Source: Monosiga brevicollis MX1
Taxonomy: Eukaryota > Opisthokonta > Choanoflagellata > Craspedida > Salpingoecidae
DNA: 49,988 nucleotides
Assembly (NCBI RefSeq): GCF_000002865.3
Contig: NW_001865075.1
Location: 191,811 to 241,798, forward strand
Direction: 5' to 3'
How positions within the stretch are numbered: position 1 is the stretch's first letter; each line of letters starts with the position of its first letter. Below, in pieces: positions 817-8,400 of the stretch. The notes under the pieces were generated by a model. That model ran no database searches and was not told the origin of the DNA. It worked only from the letters and a program-made list of their open reading frames with translations. Position numbers and translations under genes: made by a program.

Positions 817-3800
817 AATGGATCTACGCCGCTGTACGATGGCCTCTGTTCCACGGACATTCTGATGTCATCGACGTCCTATTGGAGCATGGCGCAGACC
901 TTGATGCCAAAAACACAGTTAGTTTTGCCTGTGTGACCAAACCCTTATTCTGCCTTTCCGCGCGGTGCCCACCGTCGTTCTTCGCATTGTGTTAAAAGTC
1001 GCTACTTTGAACCTCCACTGTTCTTTGTGTACCGTTTGAGCTTGAATCAACTGTTGTACACGTGCTCCTTTGCTTTTTTTCGGCGCCTCAAATTTTCATC
1101 GTTTTTTGTTCGATTGCTTTCGCCTCACCTTTTTTTTAAGGCTAAGTGGGCCTCTTTCACACACCGCCGTTGCTTGGCATTGCCCCCACATTGCCACCTC
1201 TATTTTTGACCAATTCATTGCACCTCTCATCTCTCCTTTCTTCTTATGGCTTGTTCGCCCCGTTTGGCAGGAAAACCAGACACCGCTCGACTTAGCACGC
1301 CAAAACGGCCATGGCGACAAGGTGGAACGCATATTTGCAGCTTACAAGGCTGCACAAAACGCACCCCCCCATTCAACTTCTACGCAAACTGCTCCTGCTA
1401 CGCAGCTTGAGCCATCTTGGCCGCCAACGCTGCCTGACGACGTACCCACCTTGAAGGTGTGTCCAAATCACCTCGTACCAACGGCTTTTCTTCCCCCGCG
1501 GTCCAATCATCTTCATATTCGCACTCCTTTACTATTGCACTTTGGAACAGGCGACAGCCTCGGTGGTCATGGCAGTCGAAGCCTGGCTCCAGCCACTGCT
1601 GCCCACGAATGCCATCACCCACCCGTTTCCGCACCTCGACGCTTTTGTCACCAATGCCCAAAGCAACGCCGGCGTGCGAGTGTCTGCAAAAGTGATCAAA
1701 CAGAGAATTGACGAAGCGCCAGTGGATTTGCCTCAGATGGATTGGGCGGCTTTTCAAACAATTGCAGCCAACGCCCTTGCCTCGCTTGACCAGGTGTTGA
1801 AAATAGCCGAGGCCCTCGCTGCCCGCATGAGCCAATCGGACCCAGAAGCCACCACTCTTAAAGCAGAGCTCATGGCAATGCACGATCTGACGTGCCAACC
1901 CGACCTGAAGCCGGCCTTTCATGAACTTTGCGAAGCACTCACACAATGCCCCGCTCCACCTGCCCCCAGCCCTTCGGCACCGAAAACCCCCCCGGCAAAT
2001 CTCACAGCGGCCATTGACCGACTGGCTAGCCTTCAGAACGTGGGCTCGGAGCACTCACGTCTCCTGAGGACTAGCAACAACCAGATTGAGCGCCTCATAC
2101 TCGATCTCATTGATGCCCTGGATACCCTGGCGGAAATGGGAATCAAGGATACGAGTAACCGCGTTCGAAGACTGCGACAACAAGCCAAGCGCCAGCCAAT
2201 CGAACAGACACCTCCTCAGAGCTTGTCCGCAGCCTGGAAAAAACTCTGCCGGGCCCACGAGAAGCTCAGCCAATCCAATCAGAATGGTCTTGAGCCAGTT
2301 GCGCAGTGGCAACCACCTCCCGACTACGAGCATTACGCCTGGTATCAAGCGTTTGTGCATCACGAAACCCAATGCCTGGTGCAACAGCTACAAGACATGA
2401 ACAACTGGCGAGAAAAGACGATGTCCGTGCTGTCTTCGTGTATGGATCTTGCAGACAATCTGGCTGAGAGCGTTGATGATCAAACTGTATCTGCGCATAA
2501 AGAGCTAGCCGAGTTGCACGAGCAGATCAAAGCAATTTCTTTCTTTCTCCAGGCTGCGCCCCCGGACATGCGATCTGGCCTTGGGGACAGATTGAACGAA
2601 ATGAAAGCTCGACGCGACACCTTGCAAAGACAGCTTCAAGGCCCATCGGATGACGTGGCAAAGTTGGCACAACTGCTGCATCAACATTTTCCGGCCCTCC
2701 TGGTATTTTTGTGCCCGGATCAGAGCATGTTGGGAGCGCATCTCCGTACCGTGCTTGGCCCCGATCTTCCGGTCAGCCTCATCTTGGAGGCCATGACCGA
2801 AGTGGACGGATCATTGACGCTCCTCAGCCTAGGCCAACTTGAGCTGATCTACATCCAAAACCACAAGGTGTACAAAGCCCGCGCACAGCTGCCAAATTGC
2901 CCTGAGCAAGAATTGGCCGTCAAAGAGTATGCGTTTGCTCGACAGCAGCAGGATCAGTTCCGTACTTTTCTTCGCGAGCTTCGCGCCATGCGTAAGCTAC
3001 AACATGCGCACATCATTCCAGTCCTGGGCGCGCTTGTGGATGTGCGAGATGGGCATCCAAGTGCCTACCTGGTGCAGCCATGGTGTGCGCAGGGTGACCT
3101 GCAGCAGTGGTTGAGCAAGGTGACTCGCCATGTGGCCACCTCGGGCGTCATTAAAGGGCTGATGAACCAGCTGCGCACGGCCCTGGCCTTTATGCACAGC
3201 AAGGGCTTAGTGCACCGTGATGTCAAGCTGAGCAACGTCATGCTGGACGGCTCGGAGGATCACCCTAAAGTACGGCTGGGCGATTTTGACATTGCCAAGG
3301 CGGCGGCTGAAGCAACGTTGTTGCCTTGCACGGCCACTGCATCGTCGGGCACGGCAGGCTATGTCGCACCCGAGGTCCTCTTTGGCAGGGGTCGCGTGGG
3401 TGCGCGTCCAACACAGGATGCCTTTTCCTTTGGCTGCGTTCTCTACAATACCTACATGTTCCCACAGACAGTACCGCCAGCTAGCTTGCCCACGGACCAG
3501 CTGGTCGAAAAGAGCAATTGGGATCCAACAGCAACAACCACAGAAAATAAGGCCTGCAAGTTTTCGCATCTAGCTGCCGAGGTTGGTGTTGACTTTTGTG
3601 GCAGTGATGATAGCGCGATCGTTTGAGGCCGACGCTCATGCTTGCTTTTGGTGCAGATGTGCGATTCGACGAGCAGTCTATATCAGGAAACGCGTGGTTT
3701 GCTTTCCACGGATCCGATGCAACGTCCAAGTCTCCTGAGTGTTCAGGTAGTTGGAGACCAGCCCTCCACTGATGTGGGACCAGCCATTGAAGTACTGCAG

Positions 3801-4686
3801 AATGCACCCGAGCTCATATCCGAGGTGTGTCGTTCGTGCGCTTGCTGCGTTGGAGGTGGGACAAGCCGTTACCAACCTAGTGCCTTTTATGTTGCGCGTG
3901 ACAATCAATGCAATTAGGTGGCTGAGCTCTTGAAGCAGCTGGGCGCCGACGGACGAGGTCCCAGAAACATGACTGTAAAACGGGTGGAGCGTGTGCACAA
4001 TCCCGTACTGTGGGAGCGCTACCGCAGCAAGCGACGTGAGATGGCCGAGCGCACGGCAAACTACGAGCACTTTGCCCAACTCCAATCAGCTACGGTGGAT
4101 GCGCTGCCAGGCCAACCAGCCTTGCTCCGAGATATGCCGTGCCAGGAGCGCCTGCTGCTCCATGGCATTGGCCCCGATCACGAGCTGCGTGATAAGATTG
4201 TGCGCCTGGGCCTCGACTATCGCTTTGCTGGCAGCAGTGCCGGTACTCTCTTTGGGCGGGGCATCTATCAAGCCGACCACCCCGGCAAGGTGGGCGGTCG
4301 TTTGGCAAATGCTCTATCTTGTCACAGCAAAATCTTATGAGTACACACCATGTTCATAGAGTCATCAATATGCCAAGCCATCTCGCCCTAATAAGGAGCG
4401 AACATTGATCATTACGCGGGCGTTATTGGGACGTGCGTGTGCCCATAAATCCCCCGATCCCAAAGCCTTGGATGCACCCCTTTTGCCCCATGCGCCCAAT
4501 AACGAGCGGTGCGTGAGCCACAGTCGCGCTTGCATGTTATACCCCATTCCTGTCCTTTTCTTAACACGTGCATTCTTCTTTAGTTATGACTCGGTGATTG
4601 CCACGCCGGCTGGGCAGTATCGCGAGGTGATCATGTTTGACAATGCCCAAATCTACCCTGAACTGGTCGTGTACTACACGGCTTAG
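817..4686 (+). CDS. Ankyrin repeat - protein kinase - PARP catalytic domain fusion protein (5' end not resolved)
   Basis: Exons: 817-917, 1271-1456, 1551-3581, 3657-3824, 3918-4289, 4360-4508, 4584-4686; phases agree from 1271 onward. The first two encode ankyrin repeats (HGHSDVIDVLLEHGAD, then TPLDLARQNGH). A long helical linker follows, then a kinase domain: beta3 lysine in LAVKEY (codon 2922-2924), HRDVKLSN (HRD 3213-3221), DFD in place of DFG (3282-3290), APE, and the last helix in exon 3657-3824 (DPMQRPS). Exons 3918-4686 encode a PARP catalytic domain: HG at 4161-4166, GRGIY with Tyr 4266-4268, ALLGR, and Glu 4624-4626 in REVIMFD, giving the H-Y-E triad of enzymes able to add poly(ADP-ribose). 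The domain ends normally at YPELVVYY before the TAG. No glycine-rich loop is clear, so kinase activity is uncertain. Exon 817-917 seems out of frame. The start codon lies upstream or was missed. Confidence 0.85.
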
Positions 4687-5038
4687 ATTCTCTCGACAAT
4701 CTGCGGTTCGGTCCTTGCCATGGCAATGTCTCCTTCGGGTGTTGCACTGCCTGCCGAGATAAGTATGCCAACATGTTTGACAATGCCCAAATCTACCCTG
4801 AACTGGTCGTGTACTACACGGCTTAGATTCTCTCGACAATCTGCGGTTCGGTCCTTGCCATGGCAATGTCTCCTTCGGGTGTTGCACTGCCTGCCGAGAT
4901 AAGTATGCCAACATGTTTGACAATGCCCAAATCTACCCTGAACTGGTCGTGTACTACACGGCTTAGATTCTCTCGACAATCTGCGGTTCGGTCCTTGCCA
5001 TGGCAATGTCTCCTTCGGGTGTTGCACTGCCTGCCGAG
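4632..5038. repeat. Tandem triplication, 140-bp unit, containing the PARP C-terminal codons
   Basis: Copies begin at 4632, 4772 and 4912 with essentially no differences. Each holds the last codons of the PARP domain (FDNAQIYPELVVYYTA and the TAG stop) plus about 85 bp of 3' flank. The first copy is the functional exon end, because only it joins the complete upstream PARP sequence; the other two lie in the 3' flank. Near-identity implies a recent event. Confidence 0.95.
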
Positions 5039-5479
5039 GCCACACCCAAGATAAGCATGCCAACCTTCCATTTTGTATTCAAGATGACCTTGGCGCCTGC
5101 CGCTGTGCCACTGTGCTTCGGTGCCTTTGTGCCGTGCCCAAATCTCTGTATCCCTCTGTCTACATGTGGTATTATTGTTCCTCTGTGTCTCTTGTCTTCG
5201 TTTCTCTCTCTTTCAATTCATTCATTTTGTTTCTCTCTATCTCGCTCTCAGTCATCTCTCTCTTAATTGTCAGCAAAATTATATTTGTATGTGTTTGCAG
5301 GGTAAAAATACAGCTCCAACGTATTTGCATTTGCGATCGACTTGACAACCAAGCGGCGCAGCATCGATCCGGTCGCAGGATCAGGGACGGGGTGGTGGTG
5401 GTGGTGGTGTTTGTGAGACGGGGCCCCCGAATTGGGGGGCGCATCGCACCGGGTGCACTGCTGCTAGGACCGTGCCAAG
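5039..5479. other. Intergenic region, 5' flank of CCDC146
   Basis: A pyrimidine-rich stretch (5150-5270) is followed by TGTTTGCAG at about 5292-5300, a possible acceptor for a 5' UTR exon, then a (GGT)n tract near 5390-5410 and the ATG of CCDC146. No convincing coding region was seen. Confidence 0.5.
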
Positions 5480-8400
5480 ATGAAGGCCGAGGCGGCAGAG
5501 ACCGCTTTGATGGCGGCGCAAGCGCGATTGCCCGTAGACCGCTTCGCCGCGCTGCGCTCGAGCCTCGATGCCCTCGTAGCGGCGCTGGCACAACAACAAG
5601 AGACTGAAGAGGCACAGCGCCGTAAAGCTGAGCAGTTGCATACGGACGTGCAGGTGAGCCCGGCATGACATGCTACCTGGGGCCTCACTGCCACCCCAGC
5701 TTCCTCTCCGCACTCGCCTCCTCCCTCTCATCTGGCCCGTGCATGCATCGTTCCTTGAAACAGAACCAACGCCAACGGCTGGCTCAGCACGATGGCAGCA
5801 TCCTCCAAGAGGGGACCCCACAGATGGCGCTGCACCAAGAGCTTCTGACCGCCAGCAACGAGCTCACACTCGTTCATCGGAAGCTACAAGACCGCGAGGA
5901 AGCCATTGACCAGCTCAAGGAAGACCTGGCCAACGCCAAGTTTGACCTCGGCGTCTCCCTCGATAGTCGCGGTGACAGCGAGCGCATACAGCAGATTGAA
6001 CAGCAGTCAACCGGCTTGCAGGCCGAGATTGATCGTGACACGTTACAGGCCTCGGAGTTGCAGGAAGAACTTGAGTCCTTGCGCGCCACCGTTCTTGCGA
6101 GTCGCGATCGAGAGGCCGCTGCCGCGGCTACTGTACAAAGCCTCCAAAACGATATGCAGGCAGCCAACGCGCTCCCCCAACGCATTGCAAATCAGGCTGG
6201 GCTCCTCGTTAACAACAAAAACCGTTGTGCCGCTGAACTTGAGCAACTCGAGCAAACGCTGCAAAATCGGAACCAAACCCTGGTTGATTTGCGCGACAAC
6301 CTCGCCCGCGTGCAGCAGGATACCAGCGCGGTCGATGACGCCATTGAAGCCGCCATCGCCGATCGCCTGCGTCTCGAGCGACTCCAGCAACAACATGAAC
6401 TTACGATTCAGAGCACTGAAGAAGCCAGTGTCGACCTAATTGGGCAACGTGCCCTGCTTGAAACCCAAATAGATTCTGCCGCGGGCCGCCTTCACTCCCT
6501 TGATGAGCAGGTGGCTGCCATCAAACGCCATCAAGACCGTGCCTTGCGTGAGCTCAAGGCCGCCCAGAGCAAGGAGGAAACGCTACGCTTGGCACGAGAC
6601 ACGGCTGTCAAAGAACGTGACCGGGTGGCTGTCGCGGTGGATGCTCGCCGCAAAGAAGCTCTAGATATTGCCGGCGGACTAGAACGACTCGAGGCCGACC
6701 TAACCACGAGTCAGCGCGCATGGGAATCCACAGCAGGCGTCTCGCGCGCCGCCGTGGCCAAGGTACAGGGCATGCATGCCAAAAACCGCTCCCTTGAGAA
6801 GGAGCTGGCCCATCTGGTGCGCCAAAGTGCCGACTTGGCTCGGCAACATGCGGCTGTCCGTCGGGCCGTAGATCATGCAGGCGCCGAAAAGCTGCGCTCG
6901 CTGCAAGTGTTGACGGCGCAGGAACAGCACCTCAACTCGGCCGCCCTGGGCCAGCGAGATGCCAAGCGCAGCCTTGATCAAGTGGGTTCAAAGGTCACGG
7001 CCGTTGCTATGCTTCTCGGGACCGCCAAGAATGAGAAGAACCTCTGCCTCACGCAGATCAACAGCCTGCAGCAGCGCCTGGCCGAAATGCGTGACAAACA
7101 GCGCATGTTGCACACGGAAATTGAGATTCTTCGCGCCTCGGCTGAGGAGAAGGATGTCAAAATCAACGAGATCAAGGCTGACGCCGCTGCCCGTGGCGTC
7201 ATCCTTGAGGGCCTGCGCGGAGAAGTCAATAGCACACGGCAGCAAGAGCGCGAGCTGCAGACCCAGGGCAAGAATCTGGGGCGCCTCAACCAAAAGCTGT
7301 TGGAAAGCATAGAAGTGGTGGAGAAGAAACTGGCACAGCTCCGTCAGGAGCAGGAAAGCGTCGTTCGCCAACGTGACTTTCATGCCAAGGGATTGGTGCG
7401 CCGGCAACACGACTTGGCTCAGCTTTATGAGAACCTCAACGTCACCAACAACACGCTCCACCAGGGCGAGGTTGGTACACATCGGCATGCCTGCGCTCAT
7501 TTATGTCTTTGACCTGCAGCCCTCGAGCTCACTCTCTCTCACCCACTTGGCTGGCCCTGGATGGATTTGGTAGATGGAATTGCAAGAGCGCGAGCAGGAC
7601 CTGAAGCTGCTCAATGCCGAAAAGGCTGAGCTGCTTCGAGCTATCCGTCTCCTCAACAAAGCGGTGCCTGTCAAGCACAAACTACAGAACGATCTCCTGG
7701 AATCGCAGGTACAAGAGTGCCTGTGGCTCGCCGGCCGCACTCTCGCCCTTGCCACGTGCGGATCCTTTGCAGTTGCGACCGCACCTATAGCCCTGACCCC
7801 TCACGCTTGTCCCTTGGTAGCTGGAACTGGTTTCCTGTCAGAAGCGAACGTCCGAACTTGAGGAACAGCTGCAATCACATACGCGCGTACAGCGGCAGCG
7901 TCCCGAGGATGAAACAGAAGACCTTGATCCGGTGGCGCTTGAGGAAAAGGCGACGCGCTTGGCCGAACGCTTGGCCAACAAGGAGGAGCAGGTCTTGGAA
8001 CGTGACATGGTGCTTGCAGAAACCGAACGTCTTCTGGGTCGCGCTCTGCGCCGACTCGAGGCCGGCCGGGGCGACGCACTGCAGGCCACCGCCACCGCAC
8101 GCGACTTTCAGATGCGCCTCAACGAGCTGCAGCTCAAGCTCAAGGCCTGCGTGTCCGAGCTGGCCATGTACCAGACCAAGGCCTCACAGTATCAGCGCGA
8201 AGCAGACGACCTTCGCGATACACTTGAAATGGCCGAAGCCAACCTCCTGGCCAACCGCCCTCCCAATCCCGAGGTGGGTTTAGAGACAAGTCATGTCGGT
8301 TCCGCGGCAACCACACGAGGGCATCCGACATGGCACTGCTTATTGCGCCGGTCAAATTACCAGACGAGGCATGCCATTGCGCGCTCATGTTCTTGCCCTC

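Follow-up and report, generated by a model that had tools for sequence, protein, structure and literature searches.

Ankyrin–kinase–PARP genes with hypervariable ankyrin repeats in Monosiga brevicollis: a family that looks like a recognition system

The stretch of Monosiga brevicollis DNA analyzed here (49,988 nucleotides, called the window) carries at positions 817–4686 of its + strand a run of exons with ankyrin (Ank), kinase, and PARP sequence. The locus raises the question of whether one gene joins all three or two genes stand side by side, and of what such a protein could do. An earlier note, made from the sequence alone, had proposed a single fusion gene and a domain search of the joined protein.

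Structure of the gene at 817–4686

The fusion is real, as judged from Pfam matches, splice joining, and paralogs. The gene is made of seven GT–AG exons, which together encode a pair of ankyrin repeats, an extended helical region, a kinase, and a C-terminal PARP. The joined chain has 1035 residues, and the domain search returned Pkinase (2.1e-35), PARP (4.3e-13), and Ank_4 (5.3e-5), with further ankyrin matches being weaker. Joining at the GT–AG sites gives a single frame from 1271 to the stop codon at 4684–4686; the last five introns are in phases 0,0,0,0,2.

The last full ankyrin exon (817–917, +) is 101 nt long, and its frame is disturbed compared to the 99-nt exon of the family. The C-terminal ankyrin cap (ENQTPLDLARQNGH...) and a linker are encoded by the exon at 1271–1456 (+), identified by splice joining and Pfam. 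A match to this cap is present in 19 of 20 paralogs and absent in L022; the paralogs examined are the next best PARP matches after the 817–4686 copy, so the sample leans toward close relatives. The large exon (1551–3581, +) comprises the predicted helical region, the kinase N-lobe, and most of the C-lobe (K, HRD, N, DFD, APE). The exon at 3657–3824 (+) finishes the C-lobe (LSTDPMQRPS) and links to the PARP. The PARP catalytic domain is spread over three exons, all on the + strand. The first (3918–4289) has the H of LLHG and the Y of GIYQAD, the second (4360–4508) encodes the middle part, and the last (4584–4686) holds the triad E (REVIMF) and the stop codon. The exon at 4360–4508, bounded by introns at 4290–4359 and 4509–4583, had been missed in the chain proposed earlier. 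It carries the center of the PARP fold, and leaving it out would therefore give a PARP without its middle.

The helical region in the large exon spans approximately 415 amino acids, and a Pfam scan of it gave no family above cut-off. Its helices are predicted, from an AlphaFold2 model of exon 1551–3581 (20 alignment rows) with a pLDDT of approximately 50–85 over residues 1–367; the mean pLDDT of the model is 52, and it falls below 50 over the kinase. Foldseek with this model gave nothing at E <0.001, and its top rows (helical-bundle and axonemal proteins, E ≥0.03) were regarded as meaningless.

The kinase domain has the K, HRD, N, and metal-binding D, and the APE is also kept. DFD is found in place of DFG (in 20 of 20 aligned rows), and the glycine-rich loop is not recognizable; most of the 20 rows have a QNHKVYKA-like sequence where the loop is expected. 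Kinase activity is therefore uncertain. The PARP is of the H-Y-E class, with the triad H (LLHG), Y (GIYQ), and E (REVIMF) intact, as had been claimed. When aligned to PARP12, the E of REVIMF stands opposite an I, which we take to be the triad position.

The family in Monosiga brevicollis

The 817–4686 gene is not unique but belongs to a M. brevicollis family of about 45. Two primers printed for the M. brevicollis RTKC8 kinase (PMC10263333) match the genome exactly in their gene-specific parts, on opposite strands and approximately 1.1 kb apart, and the shorter one has a second match 10 kb away; this marks the genome as that of M. brevicollis or of something extremely close. A kinase search of the genome, in which 130 of 191 candidates were scored, gave at least 46 related places (E up to 1e-20; 48 matches, 46 after merging split ones). 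At 45 of the 46, a PARP exon lies 284–509 bp downstream on the same strand (searched up to 1500 bp), and with 45 linked copies chance is excluded as the source of the fusion. The first PARP exon was found at 55 or more places; at least two further places, where only later PARP exons occur, are outside this count. At ten of the 55, no kinase match adjoins, and in six of them the listed match contains a stop that could also be an intron edge.

The order Ank, helical region, kinase, PARP is the same in 20 of 20 paralogs, including the kinase C-terminal end and the three PARP exons, and exon layout and splice sites are conserved. One type of gene joins the three domains, as first proposed. The frame from kinase to PARP is open to the stop in 19 of 21 copies (817–4686 included) and broken in L013 and L018. 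In 16 of 20 paralog loci, the kinase and the array are preceded by an N-cap exon whose first codon is ATG; in most it reads MSDDG.QL..AC..SDPQ. The match is partial in L009, at the locus edge, and absent in L013, L014, L021, and the window. A typical family gene starts with the N-cap exon, which holds the start codon; then come ankyrin repeats of one exon each, in variable number, followed by the cap repeat, the helical region, the kinase, and the PARP. Among 38 loci on contigs of known size, 13 lie less than 50 kb from a contig end, compared to at most 14% of the genome; this enrichment is weak, since contigs often break at repeats.

Both enzyme domains are under purifying selection. In the 19 open copies, kinase and PARP have median dN/dS values of 0.13 and 0.18 (170 pairs each), and the linking exon has one of 0.22 (157 pairs); the K, HRD, N, DFD, and APE, as well as H-Y-E, are kept in all 19. 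Two divergent copies have each lost one enzyme: in L030, HRD and DFD are kept but the PARP H and Y are gone, whereas L031 shows the reverse, with the PARP residues in place and the kinase HRD and DFD lost. Both activities are thus not always needed.

These data also bear on the number of genes. Two adjacent genes (Ank–kinase, then PARP) with separate transcription would fit the ATG that starts the exon at 3657 here and in 20 of 20 paralogs, the ten PARP places that lack an adjoining kinase match, and the extra block of a 3657-type exon plus PARP in some loci. However, the 3657 exon, which begins at residue 773, contains the end of the kinase C-lobe (the Pfam match runs to residue 799), and its acceptor, donor, and phase are conserved, with the L018 match split by the frame break. 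The extra block in L024 starts at a splice acceptor region, as would be expected of an exon-block duplication. Separate genes are not expected to keep their layout over dozens of duplications, which argues for a single gene. Two genes in tandem are thus highly improbable and were rejected on the linkage in 45 of 46 places, the conserved splice sites, and the junction that is open in 19 of 21 copies; the earlier claim that these are not two neighbors appears sound on this conservation.

The extra block of kinase C-terminal end and PARP in L024 (6441–7553 in gene orientation) lies approximately 1 kb downstream and is approximately 70% identical. L024 was included for a PARP copy without a kinase, and the gene analyzed there is the neighboring complete gene. 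The exons of the extra block read open, and it could serve as an alternative 3′ end. Blocks of this kind, with about the same distance and identity, are found near the 3′ ends of L017, L018, L025, and L026 (in L026, the PARP part).

Tandem repeats are present on either side of the window copy. A 214-bp unit is repeated 3.6 times at 11–783, just 5′ of the ankyrin exon; the first 1300 bases of the window, compared by blastn to the 20 paralogs, gave no match outside the window, these repeats included. A 140-bp unit is repeated 2.9 times at 4632–5038 with 100% identity and duplicates the final part of the last PARP exon together with its 3′ flank. The next stretch (5468–7512, +) has long open frames that are coiled-coil-like.

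The N-terminal part of the window copy is probably damaged. Its ankyrin exon at 817–917 appears frame-shifted. Its 101 nt compare to 99 nt in 70 of 80 paralog repeat-exon matches (lengths of 93–105 were searched in steps of three). From the best acceptor it reads NGSTPLYDGL, and HGHSDVIDVLLEHGAD comes only in another frame. The open frame from 669 has in-phase acceptors that yield exons of 234, 228, or 30 nt, and none of 99. The ankyrin section thus looks truncated or frame-shifted. Just 5′ of the exon, at 789, 798, and 801, lie in-frame ATGs from which a shorter protein could be made, with about one and a half ankyrin repeats.

It is quite possible, if not what we would expect, that this copy is a decaying pseudogene in an otherwise live family. 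The frame conflict in the 101-nt exon, the 214-bp repeats directly upstream, and the triplicated 3′ end point in this direction, whereas the kinase exon, over approximately 2 kb, and every PARP exon have an open frame, the catalytic residues are intact, and the ATGs ahead of the ankyrin exon permit a shorter protein. We take the kinase–PARP part as intact and the ankyrin part as doubtful. A pseudogene here would be compatible with the reading of the family as a recognition family, which is developed below.

Five extremely diversified codons in each ankyrin repeat

The paralog arrays have one 33-residue repeat per exon, usually of 99 nt and in phase 0. Of 239 open AG–99–GT stretches that precede the kinases on the gene strand, a profile made from the repeat exons matched 99; on the opposite strand, taken over the entire loci, it matched 0 of 396. 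The exons behind the profile are necessarily among the 99, as are a number of decayed or overlapping stretches. The main statistics use a stricter set of 68 distinct 99-nt exons, for which TPL-type and LL-type residues were required and positions 1, 3, 8, 11, and 12 were left unconstrained.

In these 68 exons, the contact-type codons 1, 3, 8, 11, and 12 are hypervariable (HV) and show an extreme diversification. Each HV position has 13–17 different residues, compared to 1–11 at the remaining positions of the repeat. This hypervariability, the most telling trait of the family, shows in the paralogs and is not visible in the window. The five positions were first noticed in the same 68 exons that were then used for the comparison of pN and pS; when neighbors were chosen from random halves of the codons, the same five ranked top. 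Over all exon pairs, pN and pS are 0.63 and 0.31 at the HV codons and 0.14 and 0.22 in the framework. In 35 close pairs, the values are 0.52 and 0.114 (HV) and 0.047 and 0.034 (framework), and in 13 non-overlapping pairs, an HV pN of 0.46 compares to a framework pS of 0.031. A pN well above pS at five codons is the pattern of positive selection on a handful of contact positions in each repeat, with the proviso that these are pN/pS counts, not a codon model, and that the raised pS leaves room for other causes. Given that in the close pairs the HV pS exceeds the framework pS, and that the framework itself has a pN no lower than its pS, selection on point mutations perhaps does not explain everything.

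Repeats with near-identical surroundings show the same contrast. In four pairs with near-identical introns, the HV nucleotides differ at 28 of 60 sites, the framework at 8 of 336, and the introns at 14 of 531. The comparison of 28/60 to 22/867 elsewhere gives a Fisher p of 1.6e-23, although repeats are not independent draws. The four pairs, from a wider set, were chosen for low framework and intron difference and not for the HV codons, and the low background is thus partly by choice. Among 43 nearest pairs of the wider set, two have no HV difference and two have a single-base difference.

Targeted mutation or block exchange in the repeat exons could have produced the hypervariability, rather than selection on point mutations alone; the arrays would still be a recognition repertoire. 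This is suggested by 10 of 20 HV codons that differ at two or three bases in the four pairs, where the introns differ so little, and by the HV synonymous difference of the close pairs (0.114 vs. 0.034 in the framework). The argument comes from four non-overlapping pairs, however, and the 36-nt blocks are nearly all distinct (93 of 95), so that none of the exons seen stands out as a donor. The same picture could also arise if the framework underwent gene conversion repeatedly. We regard such a process as improbable.

The mean repeat identity within a gene is 0.35–0.82, lowered by some decayed or misread stretches in the exon set, and single pairs reach 0.97–1.00. No gene (0 of 18) reaches a mean of 0.85; high internal conservation in fungi is defined by repeats that are more than 85% identical across at least 100 amino acids.

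The spacing of HV positions 1, 3, 11, and 12 (+2, +8, +1) equals that of residues 46, 48, 56, and 57, which are the modeled contact residues of a designed ankyrin binder in the accessible part of PMC3602593. As described there, designed binders share with the family arrays a fixed framework with variable contact positions at the same spacing. The binders are artificial, whereas the M. brevicollis arrays are natural and also vary at position 8. One fungal NLR locus has ankyrin repeats with five selected positions, on the concave face save one, according to the available text of PMC4986451. The excess at the HV codons, the spacing of the contact residues, and the similar fungal pattern together lead us to regard the arrays as binding surfaces that have diversified.

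Comparison with known systems and possible function

Tankyrases (PARP clade 4) resemble the family genes in having ankyrin repeats N-terminal to a C-terminal H-Y-E PARP. They have a SAM domain between the two, whereas Pfam found no SAM in the 817–4686 chain at E up to 1. The family genes further differ in the kinase between Ank and PARP, the copy number of about 45, and the hypervariable repeats. In a single-sequence search of solved structures, the PARP of the window copy ranks nearer to PARP12 (8.4e-10) and PARP15 (4e-9) than to tankyrase-2 (2.8e-6), which is a ranking and not a tree. On the missing SAM domain and this ranking, a tankyrase identity was ruled out.

Tankyrases were not detected in M. 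brevicollis, as far as the accessible text of PMC9688111 goes. A combination of Ank and PARP in this organism is noted in PMC4245714 and is probably the present family; the Ank–PARP passage available from that paper mentions neither a kinase domain, the family size, nor repeat variability for it. No Ank–kinase–PARP protein was found described in the accessible portions of open-access literature on kinases with PARPs, and an earlier mention in the original Monosiga kinome or genome papers is possible.

Fungal NLRs with internally conserved ankyrin repeats are likewise an expanded family with similar repeats and mixed effectors, including a protein kinase (available sections of PMC4986451). In these sections the fungal effectors are N-terminal, whereas those of the M. 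brevicollis family are C-terminal and each repeat has its own exon. The M. brevicollis family has a PARP effector, and "PARP" occurs 0 times in the PMC4986451 text. Neither NACHT nor NB-ARC was found in the 817–4686 chain, the one chain scanned (Pfam, E up to 1).

The family of about 45 copies looks like an undescribed recognition system, possibly an immune one. By analogy with the fungal repeat receptors, it is fairly likely to be a diversified family for recognition inside the cell, with a kinase and a PARP as effectors and no NOD domain. The ankyrin array would be the recognition surface, and its specificity would be renewed by repeat duplication and by change at the contact residues. The target bound by the array could be a microbial, viral, or non-self protein. 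On binding, the helical region and the kinase would pass a signal on, and the output would be ADP-ribosylation by the PARP, whether of the target, of host proteins, or of the receptor. Phosphorylation and ADP-ribosylation of one target might be coupled, as the earlier note suggested. The overall logic would be comparable to that of fungal NLRs, with other effectors and no NOD switch.

More tentatively, the family may be a protist counterpart of NLR systems, in which natural variable ankyrin arrays are coupled to two enzymes, a kinase and a PARP. Since the contact codons, synonymous sites included, change so fast compared to near-identical introns, their diversification may have a dedicated mechanism. 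Diversified binding could also serve prey recognition or mating instead of defense.

Ankyrin repeats commonly bind cellular partners, and the kinase and PARP are conserved across the copies. Both would agree with lineage-specific signaling enzymes that expanded by duplication and whose ankyrins scaffold endogenous partners, with no role in defense or non-self recognition. Fixed partners, however, do not predict that replacements cluster at contact-type codons when introns and the remaining repeat sequence can be near-identical, and we consider an endogenous scaffold unlikely.

If the recognition reading is true, approximately 45 genes, each with two enzymes and a binding surface that can be renewed, would be a concrete candidate for the recognition of microbes, viruses, or other strains by choanoflagellates, the closest relatives of animals. 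Several PARPs act in animal antiviral defense, and the present family would tie PARPs to a receptor-like architecture outside animals. The arrays would also be a natural ankyrin library whose variable positions protein engineers chose too. In a choanoflagellate transcriptome survey, the animal LRR-containing NLR family was not detected, while NACHT-plus-LRR proteins, cGAS, and STING were present (accessible part of PMC6040629).

Ankyrin repeats of this type are also found elsewhere. The consensus gave 852 candidates in the genome, of which 150 were scored, and arrays also occur on contigs away from the kinase–PARP loci, where they may be attached to other domains. Six stretches downstream of such arrays showed no clear effector domain by eye in frames of at least 130 residues. 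Eight stretches on viral contigs matched a pattern, and none encodes a relative. In L032 and L036, open frames with C2H2-finger-like motifs lie near ankyrin arrays and possibly belong to a mobile element.
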